This document shows positions 3,001 to 62,765 of a DNA stretch of 64,000 nucleotides, in pieces; positions within the stretch are counted from its first letter, which is position 1; each line of letters opens with the position of its first letter. The position numbers were made by a program, and so were the translations under genes. The stretch is from Panopea generosa (taxonomy: Eukaryota > Mollusca > Bivalvia > Adapedonta > Hiatellidae). The stretch spans positions 15,924,482-15,988,481 of the forward strand of contig CM055897.1 of the NCBI GenBank assembly GCA_029582155.1, in the 5' to 3' direction. The notes beneath the pieces were generated by a model that did no database searches, had not been told where the DNA came from, and saw nothing but the letters and a program-made list of their open reading frames with translations.

Positions 3001-3345
3001 TACACAGTATCGCCCATGAATACAGATGACGGCAGACGTAGATATATAGTTATCTTCATATTTTTTCATGGCGTTATATTGCTGCACTATTATCGCCCAT
3101 GAATACAGATAATGACGGTAGATGTAGATATATAGTTATCTTTATATTCCTTCATGGCGTTATAATGCTGCACAGTATCGCCCATGAATACAGATGATGG
3201 CGGTAGATGTAGATATATGGTTATCTTTATATTCCTTCATGGCGTTATATTGCTGCAGTATTATTGCCCTTGAATGCAGATGATGGCGGTAGATGTAAAT
3301 ATATAGTTATACTTTATAAATATATACTTTATATTCGATTATGGA
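1..3345. repeat. Array A: ~86 bp satellite with higher-order structure
   Basis: About 39 tandem copies of an 85-90 bp AT-rich monomer that includes ATCGCCCATGAATACAGAT and CATGGCGTTATATTGCTGCA. The array is already under way at base 1, so it continues to the left. A distinctive variant monomer (TTCGTGG before it, ATGTAGGTATATTGTTG inside it) recurs with its CATGAATA at 13, 1137, 1991 and 2845, spacings of 1124, 854 and 854 bp. The 1-500 block matches 2833-3330 closely at a constant offset of 2832. This is higher-order repeat organisation like that of centromeric satellites. Right edge: the monomer decays into unique sequence at about 3310-3345. A short open frame at 547-738 is a by-product of the repeat. 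Confidence 0.95.
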
Positions 3346-3548: not shown

Positions 3549-4007
3549 GTCTCACTTCACAGTTGAAGTGTGTTCCTTGTTATTTATAAATTAAGGTCTA
3601 GAATTCCCATGGTAAAAAAAGAATTCCACATATAATTTTTTTTTATGTATTTTTTTTCATAGCAGAAATGAATATCCACATAAAAATGCACACTAACTGG
3701 TAGGTTGACCAGGTTTTTTTTTTTTAAAGAGGGTGCAGTGACACCCTGAGATTTTTTAAAAAAAGAAGTCCTCAAAGCTCATAAATTCATGCATATGTTG
3801 AAATCCTATAAAAGTCCCTTTTTAACACCAGTGATGTCTTATTGCAGTATATGCTATGTCAACGTTTGGTCTTATCATTTGCAGCAAAATATCACAACCA
3901 CTATGAACCATTTTGAAAATATTTTAAAACCAAATTACAAAGGTCTTCTTTAAAGCGTTAAGAATCGTGTTACCATAAGGAAAAGAGGCGTAACTGTGTA
4001 GTGAGAC
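3549..4007 (-). mobile_element. MITE-1 copy 1 (459 bp, inverted relative to copy 2)
   Basis: A non-autonomous DNA-transposon-like element. The left end GTCTCACTTCACAGTT (3549-3564) and the right end AACTGTGTAGTGAGAC (3992-4007) are inverted repeats matching at 15 of 16 bases. Its reverse complement aligns along its length with 5900-6325, for example TTCATAGTGGTTGTGAT, CATAGCATATACTGCAATAAG, GGGTGTCACTGCAC and GGTCAACCTACCAGTTA. No transposase frame is present; the minus-strand open frame at 3584-3775 is fortuitous. Target-site duplication is unclear (TTAA on the left, TTTA on the right). Superfamily cannot be assigned from this copy. Confidence 0.8.
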
Positions 4008-4498: not shown

Positions 4499-4742
4499 CT
4501 ATTTAACTGAATTAAAACAACATTTTAATAGCTAAACTCAATTATTGTGCGTGTGTGTGTCTGTTTTAAATAAGATGTATAGACAGCAAGACGTTTTCGT
4601 AATATGGCTAAAACAGTGGCAGGAAGTTTAGTTTGATATGTATTTTGCGTCTTTCAATATTTAAATGTATAATGTTTCACTACTGGAGCCTGAGAATGTT
4701 AGAGTCAGGATAGGTTGAATAGCGAAAGACAAAACACCAGTC

Positions 4743-4975
4743 TGGACCGGTTAGCTCAGTCGGTAAAGGGTCTGAAAATTAATCCAGCGGTCGTGAGTTC
4801 GAATCACCGCCGTGTCACAGACTCCGTGATGACTTGCGGAGATGGATGTGCTCTCGATTACTGGTTAACCTTTCAGGACCCCAGATAAGAGTGGTTAGGT
4901 TAACTGACTGTATGTTAGCCCTCGGTGACATAAAAATGACGCTAAACATTCAAACAAACAGACAAACAAATACTT
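4743..4975 (+). mobile_element. SINE-A copy with internal deletion
   Basis: Complete tRNA-like head with A box (GGTTAGCTCAGTCGGTAAA) and B box (GTCGTGAGTTCGAATC). Immediately after CTCCGTGATGA it jumps to CTTGCGGAGATGG, losing about 80 bp that other copies carry (the segment from ATTGATATACGAC to CAGTTA). The 3' part and the tail (ACAAACAGACAAACAAAT) are present. Same strand as the copy at 4.2 kb, from which it is separated by about 245 bp. Confidence 0.88.
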
Positions 4976-5899: not shown

Positions 5900-6325
5900 C
5901 CTCTCGTTACACAGTTGTGCCTCTTTTTTACCATGATTCTTGCTCTTAAAAAAAGTCCTATGTAATTTTGTTTGAAATATTATCAAAATGATTCATAGTG
6001 GTTGTGATTTCTTGCTGCAGATGGGAAGAGCAAAAGCTGGCATAGCATATACTGCAATAAGACATCATGGTGTTACAAAAGAGACTTTTATAGGATATTA
6101 ATAGATGTATGTATTCGTGAGCATGTGAGAACATTTTTTTAAAAAAAAAGTTTAGGGTGTCACTGCACTGCCTTAAAAAAACAGGTCAACCTACCAGTTA
6201 TTGCGCATTTTTATGTGGGGATACATCCCAGCTTTAAATTTCTATGTGGAATAGTTCTATGCCGTGGAAATCATATACCGTATTTTATACAGAACAAAGA
6301 ACGAAAGTCAACTGTGCAGTGAGAT
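5900..6325 (+). mobile_element. MITE-1 copy 2 (~426 bp)
   Basis: Inverted partner of 3549-4007. The left end is degenerate (ACCTCTCGTTACACAGTT, about 5900-5915) and the right end is AACTGTGCAGTGAGAT (6310-6325). Alignment to the reverse complement of copy 1 covers almost the whole element, with substitutions and small indels, so the two copies are old. The pair brackets about 1.9 kb holding two SINE-A copies. A long hairpin could form if this stretch were transcribed through. Confidence 0.8.
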
Positions 6326-7583: not shown

Positions 7584-8597
7584 TCAGGCTTTTATTTCAC
7601 CTTCATTCTGTGATGCACGAGTACCGTTCATCCATTGTTTCACTTTTCTAGAGTTTATCTCAATTGCCCTTGGGGTAGGTGTGTCCATATCATCGCCATG
7701 GTTAATGTCATTTTCACGTGCAATTACTTCTAACGCTGCATCGTTATCTTTAGCGAAACGATGCTGCCTATCGCTACCGGCGAAGTTATTTCGCGGCGTG
7801 ATTTCATGGCTATCGTTTTCATTGTCAGAATCAGAGTTAACGCGAGATCTTCGTTTATTTTTCTTTTTACGTTTGTTCACTTGTGCCTCGCTTCTTATTG
7901 GCAGCAACAACGCTGTAGATTGGCCTTGACCTTGCCGTTGACCTGCATCGCGACTTGTTAAAGATCCAACAACAGGATGGTGCGTTGGAGCAGACGAAAA
8001 CGTGTTTACTAAAGATTCGCTCCTCCGCAAACTCAGCGTATTTGATTTATCCCGCGCTTTTTCGCGTCGGGTATGCTTAGATTTGTCTATATGCGCATTA
8101 TAATCTTTAGAAAAAATGTTTGGGAGTTTAGAACTTTCCTCTTTTACGTGTGAATCATTTCTAGGAGATTCTGATTGGCTTAAATCTGAATCCATACGTG
8201 TGTCTCTTTTCAAAACAGCAAAGTCTACTCGGCTAAAGTCTCGACTGATATCTAAATGGGATGGACAGCTTGGAGATCGGCAGTATGATGCACGTAGGTC
8301 CCGACCTTTGGATCTATGTCGCGTTGCGCGGGAACCAGGCAAACTGGCGACACTGGTTGAGTTCGCGCGGTCTATTGTTGGGAATTTGACTGGGCTACTC
8401 GAGAGTGAAGCCGGCATGCTTCCACGAGTATGAGTTTTTCGATCATGCGAACTACAGTAATCGCTAGAATCAGTTTCACTTCCAAGCGAAATGGCACTCT
8501 TTCTTGATATCGGCGGGAAGAATTTTTCCTCCATTGTCGGCTGCATGTAATGAGGTGGAGTCGCCGCCAATTCGGTACCTAGCAATCCAGGAGCCAT
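7584..8597 (-). CDS. Uncharacterised disordered, basic Ser-rich protein (337 aa open exon)
   Basis: This is the only long open frame not explained by tandem repeats. From ATG at 8597 (context GTCATTATGG) it runs 337 codons to TGA at 7584-7586. The product is hydrophilic: Ser, Arg, Asp and Asn rich, with no signal peptide and no membrane segment. Residues 241-252 (NKRKKKNKRRSR) form a strong nuclear-localisation-like basic cluster followed by an acidic SDSDNENDS stretch. Several RRSES, SRKS and SPSC type sites look like kinase targets. The region is richer in CpG than its surroundings, as expected of coding sequence. The last codons contain AATGAAG|GTGAAA (GT at 7600-7599), a possible splice donor, so the true protein could continue into exons to the left; alternatively it ends at TGA. 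The plus-strand frames across 7681-8433 are shadows. I do not recognise the family and assign no function; nuclear location is inferred only. Confidence 0.65.
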   Translation of the reverse strand: MAPGLLGTELAATPPHYMQPTMEEKFFPPISRKSAISLGSETDSSDYCSSHDRKTHTRGSMPASLSSSPVKFPTIDRANSTSVASLPGSRATRHRSKGRDLRASYCRSPSCPSHLDISRDFSRVDFAVLKRDTRMDSDLSQSESPRNDSHVKEESSKLPNIFSKDYNAHIDKSKHTRREKARDKSNTLSLRRSESLVNTFSSAPTHHPVVGSLTSRDAGQRQGQGQSTALLLPIRSEAQVNKRKKKNKRRSRVNSDSDNENDSHEITPRNNFAGSDRQHRFAKDNDAALEVIARENDINHGDDMDTPTPRAIEINSRKVKQWMNGTRASQNEGEIKA

Positions 8598-10283: not shown

Positions 10284-10836
10284 AGTTGTTTTTTTGGTCA
10301 TTAAATGATCACTACCACCATCTCTGAGCCAAAACTTGACCAAGAATAATTTCAAAGGGTAACTGTAAAATTGAATTTAAAAAAAACAACAGATATATAT
10401 CCCGTTCAGGTTTTAGGTACATGTATACTCATTCAAATATTTCAGCCCGATTAAGAAAGGAACTCAGCGCTTCAGTGAATCAATATCGAGTCAGGTTTTC
10501 TGGGTGTAACAAGTTTAGAGTGCTGTTAATGAGAGACTTTCTGCAAGAGCGTTGGGTTGAACCCGCGACCTCTATGGTGTGTACGACACTCAGTGTTATC
10601 GATGGATATATGTTATCTATATTGTTTATTACTGTGACAACTGATTTAAATAAAGTGAACTTCTTTTTGTAAATAACTGGCGATTTCTCAGTTGTGTTTC
10701 AGACCATTTGCTCACGCATATGACCCAAAATTGTATAGAAAATTTAAGATATGTTTAATTTTATATGTACACATCACAGAATATAACAAAGAAAATCGAT
10801 CATGAATTACGAAATGTAAATATATGTTTATATATA
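10284..10836. other. Spacer with a possible SINE relic
   Basis: Around 10545-10600 the reverse complement reads GTCGCGGGTTCAACCC, a B-box-like motif without a recognisable A box. This may be an old tRNA-derived fragment. The open frame at 10421-10672 has no recognisable domain. Confidence 0.3.
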
Positions 10837-11018
10837 TACAGCCAAACTTGTATTAAGACGCCAGTCAAGGGAACGAGCAAATGTGGTCTTTTAAGACAGG
10901 GTGTTGCTTAATACAGGTTAATATACCTTAATAGCATATAAATGGGAAAAAGAAAACATGGTTGCTTAAGTCAGGTGGCTGCTTAATAGAGGTGACCGCT
11001 TACACAGGTTGTACTGTA
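10837..11018. mobile_element. MITE-2 copy 1 (182 bp)
   Basis: Ends are TACAGCCAAACTTGTATTAAG and, as reverse complement of the right side, TACAGTACAACCTGTGTAAG. The interior is built from near-palindromic blocks of the type TTAAGACAGG, GGTGGCTGCTTAATA and ACAGGT. Flanking TA dinucleotides fit a TA target duplication, as used by Tc1/mariner elements, but the superfamily is inferred from that alone. Two more copies occur at 14410 and 21744. Confidence 0.8.
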
Positions 11019-11364
11019 TATATTTCATATTTGATTTAATCTTCGCTTTTATTTAGATATATTCAATATGATTTATATTATAACATGACACATATATTGT
11101 AACTGTTAAATACCATTACTAAACCGCGGTCTGTCTTGTGTTTTTTGTATATATCATGTACCTGAGAGGATTGCCTGTCTGTCTTGTGTTTTTGTATATA
11201 GGCCTATCATGTACCTGATGGGCCTGCGTGCCTATTGGTTAATGGAAATAAAACTATATCACCATACGTTTCTGACACGGTTTCCAAAACAAACAAAAGA
11301 CAGATAGAAGCAATTTCATTATTCGTTTTTGGTTTCGTCTTTCCGTATTAAAATAATGTAACAC
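11019..11364. other. Spacer with a short direct duplication
   Basis: TCTGTCTTGTGTTTT followed by TGTATATA and ATCATGTACCTGA occurs twice within 11130-11215. It is followed by GGAAATAAAACTATATC at about 11245. This could be the 3' tail of an old non-LTR element; evidence is weak. Confidence 0.3.
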
Positions 11365-12760
11365 TTTATTATTTGAAATGCTACGTAAGGGTTAGTTTCA
11401 ACTGTTATTTGAAATGTTACGGTAATGGTTAGTTTTATCTTTTATTTGAAATGCTACGGTAATGGTTAGTTTTAACTTTTAACTTTTATTTGAAATGCCA
11501 CAGTAATGTTTAGTTTTAACTTTTATTTGAAATACTACGGAAATGGTTACTTTTAACTTTTAACTTTTATTTAAAATGCTACAGTAATGGTTAGTTTTAA
11601 CTTTTAACTTTTATTTGAAATGCTACGGTAATTGTTAGTTTTAACTTTTAACTTTTATTTGAAATGCTACGGTAATTGTTAGTTTTAACTTTTAACTTTT
11701 ATTTGAAATGCTACGGTAATGGTAAGTTTTAACTTTTAACTTTTATTTGAAACAATACAGTAATGGTTATTTTTAACTTTTAACTTTTATTTGAAATAAT
11801 ACAGTAACGGTTAGTTTTAACTTTTAACTTTTATTTGAAATGCTACAGTAATGGTTAGTTTTAACTTTTATTTGAAATACTACAGTAATGGTTAGTTTTA
11901 ACTTTTATTTGAAATACTACAGCAATGGTTAGTTTTAACTTTTAACTTTTGTTTGAAATGCTACAGTAATGTTTAGTTTTAACTTTTATTTGAAATGCTT
12001 CAGTAATGTTTAGTTTTAACTTTTATTTGAAATACTACGGAAATGGTTACTTTTAACTTTTAACTTTTATTTAAAATGCTACAGTAATGGTTAGTTTTAA
12101 CTTTAACTTTTATTTGAAATGCTACAGTAATGTTTTGTTTTAACTTTTATTTGGAATACTACGGTAATGGTTAGTTTAAACTTTTAACTTTTATTTGAAA
12201 TGCTACGGTGATGGTTAGTTTTAACTTTTAACTTTTATTTGAAATGCTACGGTAATTGTTAGTTTTAACTTTTAACTTTTATTTGAAATGCTACGGTAAT
12301 GGTAAGTTTTAACTTTTTAACTTTTATTTGAAATAATACAGTAATGGTTAGTTTTAACTTTTAACTTTTATTTGAAATGCTACAGTAATGGTTAGTTTTA
12401 ACTTTTATTTGAAATACTACAGTAATGGTTAGTTTTAACTTTTAACTTTTATTTGAAATGCTACAGTAATGTTTAGTTTTAACTTTTATTTGAAATACTA
12501 CGGTAATGGTTAGTTTTAACTTTTAACTTTTATTTGAAATGCTACGGTAATGGTTAGTTTTAACTTTAAACTTTTATTTGAAATACTACGGTAATAGTTA
12601 GTTTTAACTTTTATTTAAAATACTACGGTAATGTTTAGTTTTAACTTTTATTTGAAATACTACGGTAATGATTAGTTTTTACTTTTATTTGAAATACTAC
12701 GGTAATGATTAGTTTTTACTTTTATTTGAAATGCTACAGTAATGGTTAGATTTTACTTCA
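11365..12760. repeat. Array B: 37/46 bp minisatellite
   Basis: Roughly 33 tandem units of the type GAAATGCTACGGTAATGG plus TTAGTTTTAACTTTTATTT. Units come in two lengths, because many carry one extra 9 bp TTAACTTTT block. CAG/CGG variants of GCTACRGTAATG are interspersed. Non-coding. Confidence 0.95.
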
Positions 12761-12896: not shown

Positions 12897-13187
12897 GATT
12901 GATTGATTGATTGAATATTTAGCGTCATTTTATGCCATCGAGGGTTAACAGACTGATCGATCAAATAACCTAACCACTGAACAGTTAACCAGTACTCGAG
13001 CACATCCCATCTCCGCAAGTAACTGATAACTTCCCCACTTGAATCAGCGGTGAGAGACGAATGATAATGAAACACAATGTCGTATATATATCAATCTTCA
13101 GGGAGACTGTTGCCGGGCGGGGATTCGAACAAATGACCCCTGGATTGATAGTCAGACGCGTAAACGACTGAGCTTATCGGGCCCGGC
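12897..13187 (-). mobile_element. SINE-A copy, near full length
   Basis: On the minus strand: tRNA-like head (GCCGGGCCCGATAAGCTCAG, then the anticodon-arm region TGACTATCAATCCAGG), B box with a mutated TTGTTCGAATCC, then the full body and a (CAAT)n tail at 12897-12913. Possible target duplication GAGGAAAGA (about 12892) and GAAGAAAGA (about 13189), one mismatch. This is the best length standard (291 bp) for the family here. Several minus-strand open frames at 12854-13367 are shadows. Confidence 0.9.
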
Positions 13188-14032: not shown

Positions 14033-14326
14033 GTACATTTGTTGTATCGGGATACGGTCCAGTACATTTGTTGTATCGGGATACGGTCCAGTACATTTGT
14101 TGTATCGGGATACGGTCCAGTACATTTGTTGTATCGGGATACGGTCCAGTACATTTGTTGAATCGGGATACGGTCCAGTACATTTGTTGAATCGGGATAC
14201 GGTCCAGTACATTTGTTGAATCGGGATACGGTCCAGTACATTTGTTGAATCGGGATACGGTCCAGTACATTTGTTGAATCGGGATACGGTCCAGTACATT
14301 TGTTGTATCGGGATACGGTCCAGTAC
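14033..14326. repeat. Array C: 29 bp minisatellite
   Basis: Ten nearly identical copies of GTACATTTGTTGTATCGGGA plus TACGGTCCA. A TGTATC variant forms the first four units and the last, and a TGAATC variant forms the five between, so copies expanded in blocks. The period is not a multiple of three, which explains the overlapping open frames in several frames. Confidence 0.97.
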
Positions 14327-14409
14327 GAGTATGTTTGTCATCTAACTGAATCCAAGTTCAAAGCTAACAATCTAGATGTGTGGTGTCACCATTCCATTAT
14401 TCAGGTAGA

Positions 14410-14549
14410 TACAGTCAAACCTGTGTAAGCGGTCACCTCTATTAAGCAGCCATATCATAGCAAATTAACCTGTATTTAGCAACAACTTGTCTCAAAAGGT
14501 AACTTTTGCTCCTTCCATCGACTGTCTGCTTAAGACAGGTTTGACTGTA
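14410..14549. mobile_element. MITE-2 copy 2 (140 bp)
   Basis: The best-preserved terminal repeats of the family: TACAGTCAAACCTGTGTAAG on the left and, reverse complemented, TACAGTCAAACCTGTCTTAAG on the right. Shorter interior than the other copies. Flanked by TA-rich sequence. Confidence 0.82.
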
Positions 14550-15664
14550 TTTGTAAAATCGAATGAGACTTCAAAATACGTCATTTTTTTATAAAATGCA
14601 TACACTACACAAAATATTCACTCGGTCGGAGAAGACCATGTTCCCCTTCATGAATAAACCAATTGATCAACATGTATCTGCTTTACATGTTTTATGTATG
14701 TATATATGTATGCGTGATATTTTTTTTTCTTCACATATTTTTCTGTAATATAAGATGCAGTTTGTGTAACGTCATGTATGTAAATATATTCCCGTGTGTA
14801 TATGTGCATATGGGCCTATGGCCTATGGCCTACTGAATTACAAATAAAAAAAAAAGGAAAAATGTGCTCTGTTTATCACTTCATGCACTCAATGTTTCAC
14901 ATGCTGTGCATGTCATGATTGTTGAGTATTCGATACATTATTCAAGATAGTTTAATCAAAATCGAAATCGTACCTAACACATTAAATATAGAACAGTTTC
15001 GATAAGCGCCAATCCTGAATCGGCAGAAATTTAATTTTCTCTAGACATCAAACATTACATGACGTAGGTGATCAATGGTTCTATTGTACGTTGGTACTCA
15101 GAAATGAAAAAAGAAGGGCCAAACTGACTGTTACTCATATGATATTAACGATATAGTCTATATGGGCCCATTTGTATTTGCTATTCACATACAGTTTATT
15201 GTACATATACATGGCGTTATTATCAATATAGTGATCGTCACTGCATTGTTTGTAATACATGTATGTGTATGCCATATACATTTGCTGATAGCGTAGTTAT
15301 ATCTATTTGATTAGAAGGAAAATATATTTGAAATATTAAGATTTGATATGACAAGCTATTATTGGCGGTTTCTCAACGTGTATCGAACATGCATTAAATA
15401 TTCTCATGCACAGATAACATTCAGTTTTACTTTCTTTTCTTTTTTTCTTTACAAACTGTTATAATTTATGTATTCACTACTTTCTTTATAGAAAAGAATG
15501 CTAAATATGTTTTTATTAAACAACCTAATTCCATTCATTAAAAGAATTTACTATGCGTTCCTTTTATTTTCAGATTTTATATTGTTAATAATTCACTTAT
15601 TTGTTTAACTGCACGTTCAAGTTGCTAGATGGTCGCCATCGTATATTCTGGCAAAATATCTACA
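14550..15664. other. AT-rich spacer
   Basis: About 1.1 kb. Contains a small GGCCTAT triplication at about 14813-14832. No gene recognised; the 61-codon frame at 14563-14748 has no features. Confidence 0.4.
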
Positions 15665-17153
15665 TACATGTACATGCATATTGCATACACTCAGCGTTAT
15701 GAATACATGTATATTGTATACTCCCAGCGTTGTGAATACATGCATATTTCATACACCCAGCGTTGTGAATATATGCATATTTCATACACTCAGCGTTATT
15801 AATACATGCATATTTCATACACTCAGCGTTATGAATATATGCATATTTCATACACCCAGCGTTGTGAATATATGCATATTTCATACACCCAGCGTTGTGA
15901 ATACATGCATATTTCATACACTCAGCGTTATGAATACATGTACATTTTATACTCCCAGCGTTGTTAATACATGCATATTTCATACACCCAGCGTTGTGAA
16001 TATATGCATATTTTATACTCCCAGCGTTATACTCCCAGCGTTATGAATACATGCATATTTTATACTCCCAGCGTTATACTCCCAGCTATATGAATACATG
16101 CATATTTTATACTCCCAGCGTTATGAATACATGCATATTTTATACTCCCAGCGTTATGAATACATGCATATTTTATACTCCCAGCGATATGAATACATGC
16201 ATATTTTATACTCCCAGCGTCATGAATACATACATATTTTATACTCCCAGCGTTATAAATACATGTATATTTTATACTCCCAGCGCTGCAAATACATGCA
16301 TATTTCATATACCCAGCGTTGTGAATATATGTATATGTTATACTCCCATCGTTATACTCCCAGCGTTATGAATACATGCATATTTTATACTCCCAGCGTT
16401 ATACTCCCAGCGTTATGAATACATGCATATTTTATACTCCCAGCGTTATACTCCCAGCGTTATGAATGCATGCATATTTTATACTCCCAGCGTTATGAAT
16501 ACATGCATATTTTATACTCCCAGCGTTATGAATACATGCATATTTTATACTCCCAGCGTTATACTCCCAGCGTTATGAATACATGCATATTTTATACTCC
16601 CAGCGTTATACTCCCAGCGTTATGAATGCATGCATATTTTATACTCCCAGCGTTATGAATACATGCATATTTTATACTCCCAGCGTTATACTCCCAGCGT
16701 TATGAATACATGTATATTTTATACTCCCAGCGTTATGAATACATGCATATTTTATACTCCCAGCGTTATGAATACATGCATATTTTATACTCCCAGCGTT
16801 ATACTCCCAGCGTTATGAATACATGCATATTTTATACTCCCAGCGTTATACTCCCAGCGTTATGAATGCATGCATATTTTATACTCCCAGCGTTATGAAT
16901 ACATGCATATTTTATACTCCCAGCGTTATACTCCCAGCGTTATGAATACATGCATATTTTATACTCCCAGCGTTATACTCCCAGCGTTATGAATACATGC
17001 ATATTTTATACTCCCAGCGTTATACTCCCAGCGTTATGAATACATGCATATTTTATACTCCCAGCGTTATGAATACATGCATATTTTATATTCCCAGCGT
17101 TATACTCCCAGCGTTATGAATGCATGCATATTTTATATTCCCAGCGTTATGAA
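15665..17153. repeat. Array D: 33/47 bp minisatellite
   Basis: About 40 units of a 33 bp monomer (GTTATGAATACATGCATATT plus TTATACTCCCAGC). From 16021 onward many units carry an extra 14 bp GTTATACTCCCAGC, which is a duplication of the monomer's own end, giving a 33/47 mosaic. The left third is an older subfamily with TTCATACACCCAGCGTTGTG. Because 33 is a multiple of three, long frames run through both strands; they are artefacts. Confidence 0.97.
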
Positions 17154-17809
17154 TTTGTCCATGAATCTCCCTATAAGATAGAGTATAATAAAAACCGATG
17201 CTCCATATTGGAATCAAATAGCAGGTGGTTTAAACATATTTTATTTCCAATGCATGTGTATGTATACATTTTATACAGCAAATGGATTGGACCACAAGTT
17301 CTCTAAGCTTAAATTTTGCCCTTCTCATTATTCAATTAACAATGACTATGTTTATGATATTATTTGACAAATAATCGATATGCATTGCTACACGTTCTGA
17401 GGTTTCATGTATTTACTTAGCTATGCCAGTGACAGTGAAATTCGAAACCTGACATCATAATCCTTAATTATCTTCAATTATAAAAATCGATAATTTTCAT
17501 ATCTCTGCCTGCCTCCTGGCTAAATTCGTTCTCATCCCGTGTTAGAAAGTGTGTAGCCCATTAATCATTCCATTAGTGGTGCAAGCAAAATCGGCCTTAG
17601 ATAAAGGGAGATAATAAATTATTCACAGTTTTCAGATAAGTTTAAATCAGTTTCTGTTTATGTAGATGGACATTAAACACAGATGCGTGTGAACAGGGCG
17701 TGACATGGCGTTGATGCCTACTATCTAAGCGGTTATCGGGTGTTTAAATATTCTATTTTATTGTTCAGTTTCGTACTAGGTCACTAGGATTGTTTTAATT
17801 ATTTAGAGA
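17154..17809. other. AT-rich spacer
   Basis: No gene or repeat recognised. Confidence 0.4.
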
Positions 17810-19209: not shown

Positions 19210-19375
19210 TCTAACTGTCATCAAGGGTTTGATAGTTCGAATCCCGATCCGGTCATAGAGTCCGCTTTGATGATTTCTCATGGACATTGTGCTATGAATC
19301 TCCCGCCACTGACTATTTGGGGAAGTAGTCAGTGGCATGCAGGTATGGGGTGTGTATAGTACTGGTTAACGGCGT
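19210..19375 (+). mobile_element. SINE-A variant subfamily, single-unit copy
   Basis: B-box region ATAGTTCGAATCCC, then CATAGAGTCCGCTTTGATGA, TGGACATTGTGCTATGAATC, ATTTGGGGAAGTAGTCAGTG, GCATGCAGGTATGGGGTGTG and AGTACTGGTTAACGGCG. It shares these specific differences from canonical SINE-A with the copy at 22976, including an end at GGTTAACGGCG instead of the usual 3' region. It carries exactly one copy of the block that became array E, so it represents the pre-expansion state. Confidence 0.75.
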
Positions 19376-20215
19376 ATAGATATGCTGATAACTGTCAAAG
19401 AATTGTACTACTGTTATACATAAAAGCGTACAACATTATACAACAAAAACAAAAATATTTACTTATAATTTCATCAGGTTCGTCGCATCTAAATAAGTAT
19501 AATTATGTAATGTAAATAAAGCCTGAGTTACTATTGACAATAAATACCATATGCCAACATTACTGATAACCATCTACTAACTAAACATATGTAAAATACG
19601 GCAATAATTAACTGACTTAGTAAGTACACCTTTGCCAGGAACAACTTGAACTGCTATAAGAAAGTATCATACACAAAGTTCTGCACAAGTATTAAACACA
19701 ACGTATTATAAACATACTTCTCTTGAATATCATCAAATCAATCCTTTCGCTTTACTAATATTCCGTTTTTTCACATACATTTAAAAAGTAATAGGTGATA
19801 CAAGCGATCAGTTAACCTTATTTTCCAGCTGAATTATTTATCGTTTGTTGTGCATACACCTATCATACTAAATGGTTCCATATACCGTTGGAATAATCAA
19901 TCCTTTGTAACCGTGACCGCGTGTACATAAGGACAAAAAATTCAATCTTATTCGATTATTCAAAAGCAAAGAAATAAGATCAGATTAACACAAGCTTTCT
20001 AATTCAGTTAATTTACACCAACATTGGGATATCAGATTTTGATCAAAATCCAAGATTTTCGTTTCTTAATCTGATTACGAGCCAAACATAGTAGGGTCTA
20101 AGGTCAACGATAAATATTATGTCTGGCTGTTTAATGTACTTTTACCGGTACGTAATTGCCTTTATTCAATCAACGACGAGGTTGACTAATTGTATATCTA
20201 TTACGTGTCTGATAT
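19376..20215. other. AT-rich spacer
   Basis: No gene or repeat recognised. Confidence 0.4.
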
Positions 20216-21125: not shown

Positions 21126-21743
21126 AAAGTTATTGTTGTATTTGAAGAGACGTCGCCTACAAATGTATGTTCGCGATATGATCAAAATGTACGTAGTCTT
21201 AAAGAAAATCATGTAACTTGTATCAAACAGTGCCATTTTCTGTAACAACATTTGTTACTTTCTTGAAACGGTTGTTTATAAAGATCCTCTATAATTAGAT
21301 ATATTCGTGATTTTAGTGAAACCGATACCGGAAAATTCCGAATGCACTTCGTTTATTACCGGAATTCAGAAAGTATGTTATTATATCTCTTTACCGGCTC
21401 CAAGCGTCAACTAATATTTACTGCCAATATTTTTCTGTGTATCCAGAAGAGAACAATCGAATGAATTCACTTGTAGACTTCAAAACGAGGCTTGTAGACT
21501 TCAAAACGAGGCGTGATTGATGAAATAAACAACAACAACAACAACAACAACAATAACAACAACAACACATCATCCGGTAACGGCAACATTCATATCACCG
21601 AAGAGGAAAGAACATATTTCATAATGAAGTAACAAACACATTCATAGTTTTATCTATGGGATGCTTTATTCTTAACATTATTCAAGAGTATATCCTTAAA
21701 CATTTGTCTTATAGACGATGCCTACCATAATCATGAATACACA
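21126..21743. other. Spacer with (CAA)n and a small duplication
   Basis: Holds an 18 bp direct duplication (CTTGTAGACTTCAAAACGAGG twice, 21471-21511) and a (CAA)n tract at about 21530-21566. Nothing coding. Confidence 0.5.
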
Positions 21744-21924
21744 TACAGCCAAACCCGTCTTAAGCAGCCACTCGTGGGAAAGAGGAAAATAACCTCTTAA
21801 GACAGGTGGCTGCTTAATACAGGTTGATTTTCACTTAAATTAAAAACATGGTAAATAGAAAATGTGGCTGTTTAAGACAAGTGGTTGCTTAATAGAGCTG
21901 ACCACTAACACAGGTGTAACTGTA
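21744..21924. mobile_element. MITE-2 copy 3 (181 bp)
   Basis: Left end TACAGCCAAACCCGTCTTAAG; right end, reverse complemented, TACAGTTACACCTGTGTTAG. Interior has AAGACAGGTGGCTGCTTAAT and a second, related block. Very similar in length to copy 1. Confidence 0.82.
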
Positions 21925-22545
21925 TTTATAGACGACATTCTAAAAACAAACATTGTAGAAAATAACACAAACTGCAGAAAATCGCACTGATTTCTTTAAA
22001 ATTACATTTTCCTTTTATATATGTACTGTCGGATCATTTCGGGGACATAAGTGTACAGGTGGCCCCCCCTTAAACGGTAAAATTTTACTAATTAATTCAA
22101 TAGCTTAGATTAATTAAAAAAAAAACCGTACCTATCTCACATTTCTGTGTGTGAACCGAAGAGTAGTCTAGGGGCAGGGCAGACCATCAGTCTCGAATGC
22201 AGAATGTATTGTTGGTTCGATCCAAGGCTGAGATATACCAGAAACGTGAACATGGTACTAATTGTAATAGATGCTTTCTTTCTCGAGGTGATCAACATTA
22301 AGAGGATAGTTGCAGGTCTGGTCGACCCGGTCAGTATGATATGACAGTGTATCTATTATATGTGTCTGCGGTATGATCCCACCGTTTGACATTGTCTCGA
22401 GTAAACACCGTCGTGATATATTGTAAGCGACGCTTAAATACCATAACATGTTACATTTTTATGACGTAACATCAAATACTTGAAATACTACTTACACTCC
22501 TCGTATAGGTGATATATACCGCTAATCTTGGTTCTCGTAATGGAT
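21925..22545. other. Spacer with a tRNA-like B box
   Basis: Around 22158-22235 the plus strand reads GTAGTCTAGGGGCAGGGC followed by GTTGGTTCGATCCAAGGC. The spacing resembles a decayed tRNA or SINE head. No tail identified, so I do not name a family. Confidence 0.35.
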
Positions 22546-22975
22546 GGAATGGGGTTTAAAGCCCGTTTTCCATGGCGCGTATTTTTGCTGTGCTATTTTT
22601 CCTTAAGCTACTTTTTGTCGCGCAGTAATAACAGGCTCACATACAATCAATTTCCATGATGCAGATTGTTTGAGCAGAGTTTATAGAGGCACGTGCGTGG
22701 AAATACACATGTATTTATTGTGTAGTGTCCATCCAAAGTGAATTTCCACGCATTGTACATGCAGACAAGCGTATAAAAATCGCCTATACTAGCGACTTTT
22801 GTCCGTGCGGTTATTAGTCAGCGGAGAAACCTGCTCCGATGGAAACGAAGGTATGCTAGATAGCGTAGAGCGATTTTTACAAAAGCAGCCCCTGTTCTGC
22901 GCATACAAATCCCTGCGATTTAGGCGCCGAAACCGTCAGAATATTACGCGCCATGGAAAAAGGCCATCCCATTCC
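22546..22975. mobile_element. Non-autonomous TIR element (~430 bp)
   Basis: Inverted ends: GGAATGGGG...TTTTCCATGGCGCGTA on the left (22546-22581) and, reverse complemented, GGAATGGGATGGCC then TTTTTCCATGGCGCGTA on the right (22945-22975). Sub-terminal sequence also pairs loosely. No transposase. The right end abuts CCGGTTACAGAGTCCG, the start of the SINE-A variant, so the element may have inserted into the SINE head. Superfamily not assigned. Confidence 0.7.
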
Positions 22976-25187
22976 GGTTACAGAGTCCGCTTTGATGATT
23001 CCTCATGGACATTGTTCTATGAGTCTCCCGCCATTGAATATTTGGGGAAGTAGTCAGTGACATGCAGATATGAGGTGTGTCTGAATATGTGGGGAAGTCG
23101 TCACTGACATGCATATATGAGGTGTGTCTGAATATGTGGGGAAGTAGTCAGTGACATGCAGGTAGTCAGTGACATGCAGATATGAGGTGTGTCTGAATAT
23201 GTGGGGAAGTCGTCACTGACATGCATATATGAGGTGTGTCTGAATATATGGGGAAGTAGTCAGTGACATGCATATATGAGGTATGGTATTTGGGGAAGTA
23301 GTCAGTGACATACAAATATGAGGTGTGGTTATTTTGGGAATTAGTCAGTGACATGCAGTTATGAGGTGTGGTATTTTGGGAATTAGTCAATGGCATGCAG
23401 ATATGAGGTGTGGTATTTAGGGAAGTAGTCAGTGACATGCAGATATGAGATGTGGTATTTTGGAATTAGTCAGTGGCATACAAATGTGAGGTGTGGTATT
23501 TGGGGAAGTAGTCAGTGACATGCAAATATGAGGTATGGTATTTGGGGAAATAGTCAGTGACATGCAGATATGAGGTCTGGTATTTGGGAAGTAGTCAGTG
23601 ACATGCAGATATGAGGTGTGGTATTTGGGGAAGTAGTCAGTGACATGCAAATATGTGATGTGGTATTTGGAAAGTAGTCAGTGACATGCAGATATGAGGT
23701 GTGGTATTTTGGGAAGTAGTCAGTGACATGCAGATACGAGGTGGAAAATTTTGGGAATTAGTCAGTGGCATGCAGATATGTGGTGTGGTATTTGGAAAGT
23801 AGTCAGTGACATGCAGATATGAGGTGTGGTATTTTGGGAAGTAGTCAGTGGCATGCAGATACGAGGTGTAAATTTTTGGGAAGAAGTCAGTGGCATGCAT
23901 ATATGAGACGTGGTATTTGGGAAAGTAGTCAGTGACATGCAGATAAAAGGTGTGGTGTTTTGGGAAGTAGTCAGTGACATGCGGATACGAGGTGTGGTAT
24001 TTGTGGAAGTAGTCAGTGGCATGCAGGTATGATTTGTGGTATTTGGGAAAGTAGTCAGTTGCATGTAAATATGAGGTGTGGTATTTGGGGAAGTCATCAG
24101 TGACATGCATATACGAGGTGTGGTATTTAGGAAAGTAGTCAGTGACATGCAGATATGAAGTGTGGTATTTGGGGAGCTAGTCAGTGACATGCAGATACGA
24201 GGTGTGGTATTTGTGGAAGTAGTCAGTGACATGCAAATATAAGCTGTGGTATTTGGGAAGTAGTCAGTGACATGCAGATATGAGGTGTGGTATTTGGGAA
24301 TTAGTCAGTGATATACAAATATAAGGTGTGGTATTAAGGGAAGTAATCAGTGACATGCAGGTAATGAGGTTTGGTATTTGTGGAAGTAGTCAGTGACATG
24401 CAAATATGAGGTGTGGTATTTGGGAAGTAGTCAGTGACATGCAGATATGAGGTGTGGTATTTGGGAATTAGTCAGTGACATACAAATATGAGGTGTGGTA
24501 TTTAGGGAAGTTGTTAGTGACATGCGGATACGAGGTGTGGTATTTGTGGAAGTAGTCAGTGGCATGCAGGTATGATGTGTGGTATTTGGGAAAGTAGTCA
24601 GTGACATGCAGATATGAGGTGTGGTATTTGGGAAAGTAGTCAGTTGCATGTAAATATGAGGTGTGGTATTTGGGGAAGTCATCAGTGACATGCATATACG
24701 AGGTGTGGTATTTAGGAAAGTAGTCAGTGACATGCAGATATGAGGTGTGGTATTTGGGGAGCTAGTCAGTGACATGCAGATACGAGGTGTGGTATTTGTG
24801 GAAGTAGTCAGTGACATGCAAATATAAGCTGTGGTATTTGGGAAGTAGTCAGTGACATGCAAATATGAGGTGTGGTATTTGGGAAGTAGTCAGTGACATA
24901 CAAATATGAGGTGTGGTATTTAGGGAAGTTGTCAGTGACATGCAGATATGAGGTGCGGTATTTGGGGAAGTAGTCAGAGACATGCAGATATGAGGTGTGG
25001 TATTTGGGAAGTAGTCAGTGACATGCAGATATGAGGTGTGGTATTTGGGGAAGTAGTCAGTGACATGCAGATATGAGGTGTGGTATTTGGGAAGTAATCA
25101 GTGACATGCAGATATGAGGTGTTGTATTTGAGGAAGTATTCAGTAACATGCAGATATGAGGTGTGTTTAGTACTGGTTAACAGCGCA
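22976..25187 (+). mobile_element. SINE-A variant with an internal satellite expansion
   Basis: Left flank of the array is the SINE body (ACAGAGTCCGCTTTGATGAT, CATGGACATTGTTCTATGAG, TCTCCCGCCATTGAATATTT) and right flank is its continuation (GTGTGTTTAGTACTGGTTAAC then AGCG at 25164-25187). Between them lie about 52 copies of the SINE's own ~41 bp central block (array E). The 19.2 kb copy shows the same flanks with a single block. The tRNA head is missing on the left, where the TIR element sits. Confidence 0.82.
23038..25172. repeat. Array E: ~41 bp satellite derived from the SINE-A core
   Basis: Monomer GGTATTTGGGAAGTAGTCAG plus TGACATGCAGATATGAGGTGT, with GGGG/GGG, GTG/GTGG and TAC/TAT variants. 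It aligns with canonical SINE-A TGGGAAAGTTATCAGTTACT followed by TGCGGAGATGGGGTGTG. A block of distinctive variants (GGCATGCAGG, TTGCATGTAAAT, GGGAGCTAGTCAG, TATAAGCTGTGG) near 24010-24260 recurs near 24560-24850. The offset is 543 bp, rising to 585 bp after one extra monomer, so there is a segmental duplication of 13-14 monomers. Minus-strand frames of 73-157 codons are artefacts. Confidence 0.95.
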
Positions 25188-25820
25188 TGTGTATGTGGAC
25201 GGACGAAAAGACGAACGATTGTTTTGGTTTTTTCCTGTTTTTAGATACCAGTGATGATAAAAAGTATTTGCATATGTGTAAATAAAATCATTTCTGATTA
25301 TATAACTTTTATCTGTTTTGAATAAAAGATCAATGCTAAATATGATTACAAATTATTAAAACACGAGTTTCAACAAACAATAATAGAGCATTGTAACCAA
25401 AAGTTCGCATCCATACAGGTCGTTCAGAGGTTTATCATCTACCCGTAAAGAGGGTGGGTGGGTTTGATATGTGTCCGAGATATAACCAACTGGTAGCTTC
25501 TTTACTTGTCATTATGCTAGACGTGCTTCGCCTTTAATATTATGCTAGGGTATTAAATGTTCGAGACCTTTTAAAACATATGTGTCAAAGAAAAATAGAG
25601 GACACATTTCCGACTTCTGTGCTTGTAAATCTATGCGACGAAAGTCCTCCCCATTATTGGCAATGATTCGCCATTGTATACCGACCTGTCAGACAAAACA
25701 ACTCCTTGCTGACAATATGTCCTATGATGTAGTTTTCACTGATCACGGCACCCATTACATGTTTGTACATGTAACAATTATTTCAGTTAGAATATTTCGG
25801 CCAAATACGTTTGAGACAAA
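25188..25820. other. Spacer
   Basis: AT-rich. The 101-codon frame at 25582-25887 runs into the MITE-3 terminal repeat and shows no domain, so I do not call it. Confidence 0.4.
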
Positions 25821-26033: not shown

Positions 26034-26927
26034 CAGGTACAAGAGAAATCTTCCACTGTGAGAATCGCGTGCACCTGTGTACGTTTCTCTTCGATAACCA
26101 TGTCGTTTTATTTAATGTGATTATATGTACTTGAGTAAACTCTAACTAATGATGAATTCGCAATACCATTTTTTAATCCCACACGTGGCAAGATAAATGT
26201 CACATTAACCTGGCTGTCAGACACATAGCCACTTACGATGGCATGCTTATGACCCAGTGGTCTCGCAACAACCTCTCTCCAAGAAGTTTAAAGCATCAAA
26301 CCGCTGACTGGAAATCGATAACTGATCGACAATATCGATATATCATCAAAGAAACGTAAAATACCGATACACAAAAGATCGTAAAAGTTTAACGATGGAA
26401 GATTGATGTATAAAAAGAAAACTTCTGAAAGTTTCTTCTGTTTTGAAATTGTGTTTGCTAGTTGCAATCAAAACAGATTGCATGTGTCAAACTAGGCATT
26501 ACTCGTAGTAAAAACTTTAATTTCAGACTTGCAAACGACTAATTACACAGATATTCATCTTGGACAATAGAAACAGTAAGTCGTTAATACAACATTTCAG
26601 GAGTTGTTTCTTTTTTATTACGTCTAGTCTTTGACGTGCAGCAAATGAATACATTTATTTCACATCACTTAAGCAATTCATTCTGTTTTCGTCTTTCGAT
26701 ATGTTGGAACGTAACTCTTTCATATTGGAGAAGGGAAGGTTTGGTTTAGGTTTTGTGTTGAATATCAGAGCAAAACAACAGGATTACTAGACTTATTTCA
26801 GACGCCCCATCAATTTAATAAATACCATAACGTCACCTATTAAGCAAAAAAAAAAAACCCTCGCTCTAACCTCGCCCGAAAACAATTATCGAAACAAATC
26901 AGAACAGACATCTTTGGCTACACAGGA
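26034..26927. other. AT-rich spacer
   Basis: About 0.9 kb; no gene or repeat recognised. Confidence 0.4.
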
Positions 26928-28985
26928 AATGTTTCAAGATTAGTTAAAGTGTTTGATCTTTGACCTCACGGAAACGGTTTGTTTGGAGAATAGACGAAAT
27001 GTTTGATATTTGGCCACAAATGAAGTGTTTGTAGAATAGTCAAAGTGTTTGATCTTTGACTTCACAGAAACGGTTTGTTTGGAGAAAAGATAAAATGTTT
27101 GACATTTGGCCACAAATGAAAGGTTTGTAGAATAGTCAAAGTGTTTGATCTTTGACTTCACAGAAACGGTTTGTTTGGAGAAAAGATAAAATGTTTGACA
27201 TTTGGCCACAAATGAAAGGTTTGTAGAACAGTCAAAGTGTTTGATCTTTAACTTCACAGAACCGGTTTGTTTGGAGAAAAGATAAAATGTTTGACATTTG
27301 GCCACAAATGAAGTGTTTGTAGAATAGTCAAAGTGTTTTATATTTGACCTCACAGAAACGGTTTGTTTGGAGAAAAGATAAAATGTTTGACATTTGGCCA
27401 CAATTGAAAGGTTTGTAGAACAGTCAAAGTGTTTGATCTTCGACCTCACAGAAACGGTTTGTTTGGAGAAAAGATAAAATGTTTGACATTTGGCCACAAA
27501 TGAAGTGTTTGTAGAATAGTCAAAGTGTTTTATCTTTGACCTAACAGAAACGGTTTGTTTGGAGAAAAGATAAAATGTTTGACATTTGGCCACAAATGAA
27601 AGGTTTGTAGAACAGTCAAAGTGTTTGATCTTTGACCTCACAGAAACGGTTTGTTTGGAGAAAAGATAAAATGTTTGACATTTGGCCACAAATGAAAGGT
27701 TTGTAGAACAGTCAAAGTGTTTGATCTTTGACCTCACAGAAACGGTTTGTTTGGAGAAAAGATAAAATGTTTGACATTTGGCCACAAATGAAAGGTTTGT
27801 AGAACAGTCAAAGTGTTTGATCTTTGACCTCACAGAAACGGTTTGTTTGGAGAAAAGATAAAATGTTTGACATTTGGCCACAATTGAAAGGTTTGAAGAA
27901 TAGTCAAAGTGTTTGATCTTTAACCTCACAGAAACGGTTTGTTTGGAGAAAAGATAAAATGTTTGACATTTGGCCACAAATGAAGTGTTTGTAGAATGGT
28001 CAAAGTGTTTGATCTTCGACCTAACAGAAACGGTTTGTTTGGAGAAAAGATAAAATGTTTGACATTTGGCCACAAATGAAAGGTTTGTAGAACAGTCAAA
28101 GTGTTTGATCTTTGACCTAACAGAAATGGTTTGTTTGGAGAAAAGATAAAATGTTTGACATTTGGCCACAAATGAAGTGTTTGTAGAATAGTCAAAGTGT
28201 TTTATACTTGACCTAACAGAAACGGTTTGTTTGGAGAAAAGATAAAATGTTTGACATTTGGCCACAAATGAAGTGTTTGTAGAATAGTCAAAGTGTTTTA
28301 TCTTTGACCTAACAGAAACGGTTTGTTTGGAGAAAAGATAAAATGTTTGACATTTGGCCACAAATGAAAGGTTTGTAGAACAGTCAAAGTGTTTGATCTT
28401 TGACCTCACAGAAACGGTTTGTTTGGAGAAAAGATAAAATGTTTGACATTTGGCCACAAATGAAAGGTTTGTAGAACAGTCAAAGTGTTTGATCTTTGAC
28501 CTCACAGAAACGGTTTGTTTGGAGAAAAGATAAAATGTTTGACATTTGGCCACAATTGAAAGGTTTGTAGAATAGTCAAAGTGTTTGATCTTTAACCTCA
28601 CAGAAACGGTTTGTTTGGAGAAAAGATAAAATGTTTGACATTTGGCCACAGATGAAGTGTTTGTAGAATAGTCAAAGTGTTTGATCTTCGACCTAACAGA
28701 AACGGTTTGTTTGGAGAAAAGATAAAATGTTTGACATTTGGCCACAAATGAAAGGTTTGTAGAACAGTCAAAGTGTTTGATCTTTGACCTCACAGAAACG
28801 GTTTGTTTGGAGAAAAGATAAAATGTTTGACATTTGGCCACAAATGAAAGGTTTGTAGAACAGTCAAAGTGTTTGATCTTTGACCTCACAGAAACGGTTT
28901 GTTTGGAGAATATACAAAATGTTTGACATTTGGTAACACATGAAATGTTCGTAGATCTAGTCTGAAGGTTTGAAGTTTGACCACG
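26928..28985. repeat. Array F: 96 bp satellite, open on the minus strand for 649 codons
   Basis: About 20 copies of a 96 bp monomer, itself a dimer of related ~50 and ~46 bp halves that each begin GTTTGAYMTTTGRCC and contain a second GTTTG. Edge units are diverged (26928-26970, 28900-28985). As 96 is 32 codons, the minus strand reads as 20 repeats of a 32-residue unit (28889 to 26940). I regard it as non-coding. Differences between units are mostly amino-acid changing (Cys/Tyr, Leu/Thr, Phe/Ile, Ser/Leu), there is no domain, and no promoter or splice context was found. A real repetitive protein is not excluded. Confidence 0.93.
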
Positions 28986-40757: not shown

Positions 40758-41020
40758 CATGCCATTGAGGGCTAACAGACGATAAGTTAACCTAGCCACT
40801 GTTTCCTGGGATCCTGAAAAGATAACCAGTACTCGAGCAAACCATATCTCCTCAAGTAACTGATAACTTTCCCACTTGAATAAGCGGTGAGAGACAAATA
40901 ATAATGAGACACAATGTCGTATATCAATCATCACGGAGACTATTGCCGGACGGGGAATCGAACTCACGACCCCTGGATTGATAGTCAGACGTGTTGCCGA
41001 CTGAGCTAATCGGGCACGGC
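40758..41020 (-). mobile_element. SINE-A copy, tail-less
   Basis: Minus strand: GCCGTGCCCGATTAGCTCAG (A box), ACTATCAATCCAGGGGTCGT, GAGTTCGATTCCCCG (B box) and a well-preserved body to CCCTCAATGGCATGCAT, where the usual AAAATGACGCTAAAT 3' end is replaced. One of the least diverged heads in the window. Confidence 0.9.
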
Positions 41021-42891
41021 GATAACGGAGATTAACAGCAGCGGTACATTCGGTAACAAAACTACTATCGAGGAGGATAAACTAGATTTACGGTCGTACC
41101 AAACCTTGTTGTTTCTTCTGTCCTCATGTCATAAAATGAGACAGAAAAACATAATGTAGCCCTATAACATTAATCATTCCTGCAGTTTATCAAAATAACT
41201 TAAAAGTCATTAAAACGGCAAAAGTATAGAACATTTTAAAACAACACTTAAAACACTTGGCAATGGAATAAACGATACTTACAAAATAGTAATCAAAGGA
41301 ACAAACCATTAGCAAGTGAATCATAGACAAACGTGTATTCTCTTCAATTGAATTAAACATCCAGTTGCCGTTACACAACTTGTTTCGATAGCCTTCGTAT
41401 ACTTAACATTTATCTACCTGATAGTGTTCAAGGGCTGACATTATATAGTGTATACGTTTAATACTGATCACTTTGACAGACACTTGATTGACACATGATT
41501 GAGCTGCTGTACATCTACCAGATTATCTTTGTATGATTCAAGCGTCTAACACACTTAAAAAGCAATTATCACATAACGTTAGTCGGTCAGATTTAACTTG
41601 TATAACAAACAATAAAATTTCCTTTTAACGTATCAATTTCATTTGGCAGTAAAATCAACACTGACGCGATAAAACAATCAGCGACGCCGTGGGAGGGATG
41701 TTCTTTATTCTAAAACCGTGTTTTAATCCGTTCTCGAGTATATAAATTTCTAATTACAATCATTTGATGTGTCGCTGATGTTGGCAGTGTATCACCATTG
41801 AGGGAATACGTAAAGTACAAATGATTTTTTAAATCAAAATACAAGCATTCTATATCTTAAAGTTGAAATACATGGACATATCAGAATGTTTTTTTAGTTA
41901 TTCGTTATGTAGAATATTCATCGTCGTGTTACAAATTTTAATAAAAATGCCATAAATTGTAAGACATCGTGTTTCAGGGTTTAATCGAAATTGCCTGAGT
42001 TGTTCTTTTGTATCATATAATTACCATGGTTCAATATCTAACAAGGAGTGATGCAATGCATTGTAAAGTCATCGCTTCACCGAGTTTTATATTCTTTTAT
42101 TTAATTTTTTTTTCTGTATTTAACCTGGTGTTATAACGTTTGTTACGGTATAGTTATCGATTGTATTGCCATCAAATATATATCTTGACTGATCGTCACA
42201 AATTCTTTAGAAAATTACCATCGTCCAGAATGTTTTAAAATAATACTAGTATCGAAAACATTTAGTATTTATATAAACACTTAGTTCATAAGTGGCTGAT
42301 TTACAAGCTGCTTTATTCTGGAAGGAATATGTTATCTGTCACGTTTGAAATATGAATATTCTCACGTAAGCATTTATACTGGTCATACCTAATACCGCGA
42401 GTCTAATTTTTTTTCAACCATGGAAAGAATGGCGTCAATAATAAACAGTAATAAGGTGACTTAAATATGCTGATTAATAAACAGTTGCCGATACGAAATG
42501 CAAACAAATGCCGACGCTAACGAAAGCTTTGCGCATATCATCCCAGATTGTTATTATACGGGCATTCGCGGTAATAGGTATATCGCGGTATTAGGTATAC
42601 AAGGGATATATTTGAATTTCCTTTTACAGTTGTAGGATATAGGTCGAGTCGCTAACCGCTATTTTAGACGTTTGACCATGCCTTGACAGAATCAAGCAAT
42701 AATAAGAAAAACATACTAAAAGGAACAGCTAACCTGCCACTTTTGTATTTCCAATATCTTCGTCAAAATATGGAGTAGCGTTAATGAAATGTGTATACGA
42801 GATTATAACACATGTATTGGTTTTACAGAGCCTAAACGTTCTTTCTTATTTAATTCCTCATTTCAAAGACATTGCTTGGCTACTTTTTGAT
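41021..42891. other. AT-rich spacer
   Basis: About 1.9 kb with no gene, RNA or repeat that I recognise. Confidence 0.4.
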
Positions 42892-45259: not shown

Positions 45260-45365
45260 TATCATTGTGCAAAGGATAAAATAGAAACTAGTTATCCATA
45301 GTTAGAAGCAATAATGAATATATACAGTGAGAATTGCATGGCGTTAATGGAGGAGAATAGGTTCA

Positions 45366-45748
45366 AGGTGCACGTACCAATGCCAGCATTATTTCAGATA
45401 AAAATACGTACGCAGGCACAAGGTGTGCGTTCCACATATCAGCACTATTTCAGATAAAAATACGTACACATGCCCAAGGTGCGCGTACCCCTACCAGCAC
45501 TATTTCAGATAAAAATATGTACACGGACCAAAGGTGCGCGTACCCCTATCAACACTATTTCAAATAAAAATACGTACACATGCCCAATGTGCACGTATCC
45601 CTACCAGCACTATTTCAGATAAAAATACGTACACAGGTCAAAGGTGTGCGTACCCCTATCAGCACTATTTCAGATTAAAGTACGTACACAGGTCAAAGGT
45701 GTGCGTACCCCTATCAACACTATTTCAGATTAAAGTACGTACTCCAGA
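45366..45748. repeat. Array I: 55 bp minisatellite
   Basis: Seven units (first ones 54-56 bp, then constant 55) of GTGTGCGTACCCCTATCAGC, ACTATTTCAGATAAAAATAC and GTACACAGGTCAAAG. The left units are more diverged, the right ones nearly identical. The 85-codon frame across it is a repeat artefact. Confidence 0.95.
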
Positions 45749-57629: not shown

Positions 57630-57795
57630 TAGAGCCGGGGTCGGTTAGCTCGGTCTGTAGCGTCTGCCGGAGTATCATTCCATGGCTCATGGGTTCGAAT
57701 CCCCACGTGGACACAGTTAATGATTCAAGTGGGAAATTATCAGTTACTTTGGGAGACGGGTTTCTTTAAATACTGGCTTACCTCCTTATAAACAG
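57630..57795 (+). mobile_element. SINE-A remnant with internal deletion, interrupted by SINE-D
   Basis: Head GGGTCGGTTAGCTCGGTCTG (A box) and CATGGGTTCGAATCCCCAC (B box), then a jump from GGACACAGT to AATGATTCAAGTGGGAAATT, losing about 55 bp. The 3' part stops at CTGGCTTACC, right where the SINE-D target duplication begins. Confidence 0.8.
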
Positions 57796-62409: not shown

Positions 62410-62606
62410 ACCTTTTATTCAACAATATCTCAGCTACGTAACGGAGGTTAGTGCGCTTAGTCAATGTTTCTTGAATCCACTAGCAAGTTCACCGGTACTA
62501 AATGCATCTTATCTCTTCAACAATATTTCAGCTACGTAACGGAGGTTTGCACTTAATCATCGTTTCTGGAATCCGCTAACAGGTTAACCAGTATTAAATA
62601 CACCTT
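62410..62606. repeat. 98 bp tandem duplication
   Basis: TCAACAATATYTCAGCTACG, TAACGGAGGTT and the later CTTATCTCTTCA blocks occur twice, at a 98 bp offset (62419 and 62517). A third partial start (CACCTTATCTCTTCATG) follows. Confidence 0.85.
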
Positions 62607-62659
62607 ATCTCTTCATGTCATGACTCCTTCCTCATATAAACAATGGGGGAGTTATAACT

Positions 62660-62765
62660 TGAGAACAAATCTAATGGCCAATCATCAAAGAGACTTGGGC
62701 CGGACAAGTGACCCTTGAAGTGACAGTCAGACGCTTTACCGACTGAGCTATCACGGCCCGGCCTC
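62660..62765 (-). mobile_element. SINE-A-like head fragment
   Basis: Minus strand: GGCCGGGCCGTGATAGCTCA, GTCGGTAAAGCGTCTGACTG and TCACTTGTCCGGCCC. The A box is intact, the B box (GTTCGAATCC) is absent and the SINE-A body does not follow. Either a truncated SINE or a head with a different body. The frame at 62618-62854 is a shadow. Confidence 0.6.

Follow-up and report, generated by a model that had tools for sequence, protein, structure and literature searches.

A 42-bp tandem array in Panopea generosa that very probably grew in place from the core block of a SINE copy

The DNA analysed here, a stretch of 64,000 nucleotides from contig CM055897.1 of Panopea generosa (GenBank assembly GCA_029582155.1; hereafter the window, in whose positions all coordinates are given), carries a 2.1 kb tandem array at 23039-25167 on the forward strand, which was delimited by a wraparound parse and by TRF and whose right edge is uncertain by a few bases. 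The parse, run over 23039-25172, yielded 52 segments, namely 50 monomers of 41-47 bp, one partial monomer of 27 bp and a remainder of 5 bp. The modal unit is 42 bp long (31/52 parsed segments) and a length of 41 bp is found in 13/52, most of these shorter monomers missing one G from a GGGG run; an earlier note on this DNA, made by reading the sequence, had given a 41-bp period and about 52 copies, and both figures are corrected by these counts. The periods reported by TRF were 42 and 125, the latter equal to three monomers, with a further one of 47 bp at the left end of the array. Among the 50 monomers mean pairwise identity is 87.9% (12.1% divergence); against the consensus it averages 92.8%, and the first monomer shows no substitutions with respect to the 42-bp consensus in the parse. 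It should be noted that two monomer variants, 22 A>G (9/50) and 29 G>A (13/50), recur in monomers that lie far apart, so that the history of the array is more tangled than the steps proposed below.

On both sides the array is continuous with a SINE. The 5' half of a SINE copy lies outside the array at 22966-23038 and the 3' half past it at 25166-25188, both on the forward strand and both recognised by BLAST and by shuffle tests against a sister copy of the same subfamily at 19241-19377 (+), which contains a single block at 19314-19355. The BLAST-matched SINE starts of the sister and of the array locus are about 3.7 kb apart; the head homology of the sister may start further upstream, where a relaxed box B pattern is matched at 19234. 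The left match joins 22966-23080 to 19241-19355 of the sister with 89.6% identity across 115 bp, and thus extends to the end of the first monomer (23039-23080, +), which is the block in its original context running on from the 5' half. The right match joins 25125-25188 to 19314-19377 with 85.9% identity across 64 bp, and includes the last monomer (25125-25167, +; BLAST to the sister, and parse), which runs into the 3' half. When projected on the sister the two halves overlap, by their BLAST ends, by one 42-bp block, so the array occupies the place of a single 42-bp block. Outside the block 9/73 bases differ between the 5' half and 19241-19313 of the sister, and 3/23 between the 3' half and 19355-19377. 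Local alignment scores were compared with those of 1000 dinucleotide shuffles of the sister: the doubled monomer consensus scored 68, where the best shuffle scored 33; for the flanks stripped of monomer sequence the scores were 104 on the left (22940-23038; best shuffle 26) and 32 on the right (25166-25230), a thin margin over a best shuffle of 29. The identity of the sister block to the monomer consensus is 92.7%. The two central claims of the earlier note, that the array is bracketed by the halves of one SINE copy and that its monomer derives from the central block of the SINE, hold up well.

The sister had been presented as the pre-expansion state of the array. It is indeed a one-block copy that matches the monomer and both halves, but as the direct ancestor it was rejected, as monomer positions 22 and 30 (by eye) are G in the sister and A in the array consensus. 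At these two positions A is also found in the SINE-A copy A1 and in a copy near 62.6 kb, and G is found in 9/50 and 3/50 monomers respectively; position 35 gives the opposite signal, with G in the sister and A1 and A in the array and the 62.6 kb copy. On these bases the sister is best taken as a parallel copy of the subfamily, and not as the state of this locus before its expansion.

Within the 64 kb there are seven SINE-A-like copies, some of them incomplete, plus several partial ones, and these dispersed copies have a common head, core and tail, as a SINE family should. A third, more distant relative of the array locus and the sister is the 62.6 kb copy (62583-62762, -), which has an array-like block and a SINE head with a box A match. 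The parent of the array would be a diverged subfamily and not SINE-A proper, the parent proposed in the earlier note: two SINE-A queries matched array monomers at only 78-81% over 35-37 bp. In the alignment with SINE-A the array locus and the sister have in common a 3-base insertion and an 8-base gap, and a one-base gap in the tail just before AGTAC/AATAC is common to the array locus, the sister and the 62.6 kb copy. Within the wider SINE family the block corresponds by alignment to the core, which may resemble the Nin domain. In a shuffle test of the monomer against eight copies besides the sister (the seven SINE-A-like ones and the 62.6 kb copy), A1, A2, A4 and the 62.6 kb copy scored above all 1000 shuffles, while the score was reached by 11 of 1000 shuffles for A3, 123 for A5, 990 for A6 and 850 for A7.

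A tRNA origin of the SINE head is likely, with weak support from the models. The Rfam tRNA model aligned to 62660-62757 in the 62.6 kb copy with 19.6 bits, under the 29-bit cut-off; no Rfam match in the window attained the gathering score, the tRNA model gave no match at 40900-41060 in the 41 kb copy, and no tRNA was found by ARAGORN. In a search with box A and box B patterns, box A was matched at 4752, 10012, 62750, 41008 and 32259, each time within a SINE copy and with no chance control, and the one exact match to box B, at 57092, lies outside the known SINE copies. Two copies of unusual structure were also seen. The copy at 57633-57760 (+) is short and has no SINE-A linker, its tRNA-like head sitting almost directly on the core block; homology resumes there near the point where the 47-bp unit of the array has its left edge. 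At 4738-4960 (+) a SINE-A copy lacks about 75 bp internally, a deletion that takes away the linker along with the first part of the block. Upstream of the 5' SINE half of the array no recognisable tRNA-like head was found, and two tests for a target-site duplication at the array copy were negative (shuffle p 0.70 and 0.63), so retroposition of this copy is only putative. The sister has a 9-bp direct repeat with a shuffle p of 0.010, yet this repeat lies inside the possible head; the other six of the seven tests for target-site duplications, the two for the array copy included, gave p values of 0.57-1.0.

The left end of the array differs from the rest by a zone of four 47-bp-type junctions at 23072-23247 (+; exact-pattern scan and parse), whose patterns start at 23072, 23119, 23184 and 23231 and occur nowhere else in the array. 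The junction consists of GGTGTGT, which is the end of the block in the SINE, followed by CTGAATAT, which corresponds to the sequence immediately before the block (CTGACTAT in the sister and TTGAATAT at the array locus); point changes aside, SINE sequence explains all of it. The 47-bp form has an extra TCT and AA, which occur in none of the parsed monomers from monomer 6 onward. This form would have been the first to arise, as the SINE directly provides its template. TRF also detected a direct duplication with an offset of 112 at 23050-23272 (+), composed of 23050-23161 and 23162-23272, in which 110/111 positions are identical (0.991); its seam is out of register and an 18-bp repeat is found at 23144-23179. 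The second pair of 47-bp junctions lies 112 bp from the first pair and within this duplication, so two junctions probably existed before it took place.

A second-level duplication, which the earlier note had placed at offsets of 543 and 585 bp, is visible at those same offsets. Its left copy comprises monomers 24-31 (23998-24331, +) and its right copy, longer by one monomer, comprises monomers 37-45 (24541-24916, +), and 329/334 aligned bases are identical (98.5%) when a gap of 42 nt, equal to one monomer, is left out. Seven consecutive monomer pairs contain just 5 differences, a value reached in 0/1000 permuted monomer orders, where the lowest was 13. The seam is occupied by monomer 36 (24499-24540, +), whose left 20 positions are closest to monomer 46 (1 difference; 2 for the runner-up) and whose right 22 positions are identical to monomer 23 (1 difference for the runner-up). 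Judged on these few sites, monomer 36 looks like a chimera of monomers 46 and 23, as is expected of in-register exchange. Less clean copies of three monomers are also present, 16-18 versus 19-21 (differences 0, 2 and 7) and 29-31 versus 33-35 (differences 2, 0 and 2).

Taken together the two SINE halves differ from the sister at 12/96 bases outside the block, and the mean divergence between monomers, 12.1%, is about the same, which suggests an expansion that is old compared with the insertion. If sites change alike in both, the monomers would date from about the time when the two SINE copies split; array sites may change faster. The description of a SINE caught while turning into a satellite was on these two values overstated, and only some of the later duplications look recent (the 329/334 and 110/111 copies, with about 1-1.5% divergence). 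There is little sign of local homogenisation within the array. Neighbouring monomers are no more similar than they are when the order is permuted (lag 1, p 0.63), and across 20 lags similarity was strongest at lag 14 (p 0.005) and then at lag 2 (p 0.043), both values being uncorrected. Neighbour-by-neighbour slippage as the main engine was rejected on the lag 1 result; simple one-unit slippage predicts alike neighbours, so this result also counts against the explanation that we favour below. Hairpin-driven slippage was rejected as well, since DNA folds of the monomer, the dimer, the reverse strand and the sister block were no better than those of shuffles (z of 0.79, -0.51, 0.55 and 0.59, respectively).

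The window is rich in minisatellites, with units of 29-96 bp detected by TRF at 1-3318, 11396-12758, 14033-14326, 15671-17154, 26913-28982, 45364-45742, 55852-57012 and 60278-61540. In the array at 15671-17154 units of 33 and 47 bp are interleaved and combine to 80 and 113 bp, a second higher-order structure in the window, and the strong matches of its 47-mer unit are confined to its own array. For several other arrays it is the flanks, and not the units, that match dispersed repeats. One such repeat is found at 14406-14558, where it adjoins the 29-bp array, and at 10828-11022 and 21738-21928 (BLAST pieces of 79-94% identity); the right flank of the 86-bp array pairs 3550-3718 with 6176-6324 on opposite strands (69% over 169 bp, E 6e-16). 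An open reading frame of 649 aa at 26940-28889 (-) is nothing other than the 96-bp array in frame, its unit being divisible by three, and one of 337 aa at 7584-8597 (-) is a possible exon without Pfam matches at E of 1 or below. From 61 TRF rows 12 arrays were chosen, simple repeats and short arrays being excluded, and of the 13 units that they provided (one array was represented by two units) only the 42-mer had relatives outside its own array with E below 1e-3, these being at 19314 (E 2e-12) and 62638 (E 2.5e-5); a further match of the 42-mer, at 13037, had E 0.001. Exact searches with a 29-mer from the monomer and a 24-mer from the SINE-A core gave 0 matches each in viral_contigs and there was no match in phage records, results of little weight given that host DNA is not expected in either.

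The homology between the repeat unit and the SINE block, the register of the array with both flanks, the two separated classes of junction and the duplications can be read directly in the DNA. We are confident that they reflect an array that grew in place inside a SINE copy of the diverged subfamily, starting from its central block and passing from a 47-bp to a 42-bp unit. The order of the first steps and the mechanism of exchange we infer as follows. A SINE copy of the diverged subfamily would have been present at the locus, and its central block would have been tandemly duplicated in place as a 47-bp unit reaching from the YTGA before the block to the GTGTGT at its end. One 47-bp unit would then have lost about 5 bp at the junction to give the 42-bp unit, which could have multiplied through unequal exchange, slippage or both until tens of copies were present. 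Some 10-13 consecutive monomers would afterwards have been duplicated together, for which in-register unequal exchange is the most likely mechanism; a 112-bp piece at the left edge would also have been duplicated later, out of register.

It is quite unlikely that the first duplications occurred instead during retroposition, by template switching on the SINE RNA, and that the element thus had several blocks on arrival. SINEs of this window do rearrange internally, as the copies at 57633-57760 and 4738-4960 lack segments near the block, and the ends of the initial junction have at most one base in common (by eye). The later rounds, that is the copies with 98.5% identity and the offset-112 duplication, are nevertheless most simply explained at the DNA level and in place, and a SINE RNA of more than 2 kb is to our knowledge not to be expected. 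Mobile elements that capture satellite sequence are a published model (PMC11121367), under which the 42-bp repeat would be an older dispersed satellite or tandem-bearing element whose monomer a SINE subfamily captured as its core; 4/7 SINE-A-like copies, without a clear match to the unit on their own, would fit such a history. We consider it highly improbable, as SINE halves lie in register on both sides of the array, the block can be aligned to the core in the wider SINE family and A1, A2 and A4 score above all 1000 shuffles, and in the window the 42-mer is found nowhere beyond the array and SINE copies. The slimmest chance falls to an assembly artefact, with a wrong copy number or the array wrongly joined to the SINE halves: tandem arrays are frequently misassembled, yet the mean difference of 12% between monomers aids the placement of reads and the same SINE subfamily is found in register on both flanks. 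Two other candidates were rejected, namely an older array invaded by a SINE, as the SINE is outside and the array inside and in register, and tandem insertion of whole elements (the double-insertion model), as the units contain the block only.

The array is also close to minisatellites and VNTRs, which are local arrays that change by duplication of runs of units. It resembles them in being a local 2.1 kb array of units of about 42 bp in which runs of units have been duplicated, and differs from them in general in that the seed sequence, the flanks and an early type of junction are identifiable. Where a classical satellite would form long, homogenised arrays in many or in heterochromatic places, the window offers one 2.1 kb array at one locus within 64 kb, with monomers 87.9% identical on average. 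The array most likely has no function and would be a local minisatellite or a nascent satellite with drifting copy number.

The closest known systems are the SINE-derived satellites (sSats) of squamate reptiles, surveyed in 56 genomes and noted for their terminal SINE continuations (Vassetzky et al., 2023; PMC10702118). As in those sSats, a head-to-tail array is made from a portion of a SINE and the SINE continues past the terminal monomer: the unit is homologous to part of the SINE and shorter than it, the 50 monomers and one partial exceed the minimum of at least four head-to-tail units, and the terminal unit continues into the remaining SINE at both ends, the stretch on the right being short and narrowly significant. 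The 50 units fall within the few to hundreds per locus of squamate sSats, in which alternating subvariants also occur. The 42-bp unit is shorter than the roughly 70-290 nt of squamate sSats, a range that was observed and is not a requirement, and the same work also cites SINEs that contain internal duplications of about 30 nt. Both SINE ends are kept here, which in squamates is among the minor variants, and there is one locus in one 64-kb window where squamate sSats have many loci and a subtelomeric placing. Indian cobra sSats above 10 units have 91% homogeneity against a mean pairwise identity of 87.9% here, and in reptiles homogeneity rises with array length where here there is little local homogenisation (PMC10702118).

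Among molluscs PcH-sat of the limpet Patella caerulea has a 179-bp unit that contains a 118-bp stretch resembling Nin-SINE, mainly its 3' part, and makes up about 10% of the genome with a mainly pericentromeric location (PMC11121367). The Panopea array is like PcH-sat in having a tandem unit with a SINE-like stretch, and unlike it in that the unit is a 42-bp core block at one locus of 2.1 kb. SINEs are named among satellite sources in a 2025 review (PMC12692304) and bivalve SINEs are treated in PMC10294476. The principle that satellites are born from SINEs is already published, for reptiles (PMC10702118) and for the limpet (PMC11121367). No 42-bp array from a SINE core is named in the titles or abstract openings among the matches listed, which cover the literature incompletely.

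The core block may also be a recurrent seed, such that 2-10 blocks linked by the same 47-bp junction would be found in other copies of the subfamily, and the 42-mer would occur in free arrays as well; we regard this as unlikely, and if true it would mean that one genome holds the entire series from SINE to dispersed satellite. The array itself is a clear example of a known route by which satellite-like DNA is born. Satellite DNA is often without a visible source. At this locus the seed, a one-block relative, an early form of the junction and the later duplications are readable within 6 kb, and a stepwise model of satellite birth thereby becomes testable at one locus across individuals or related species.
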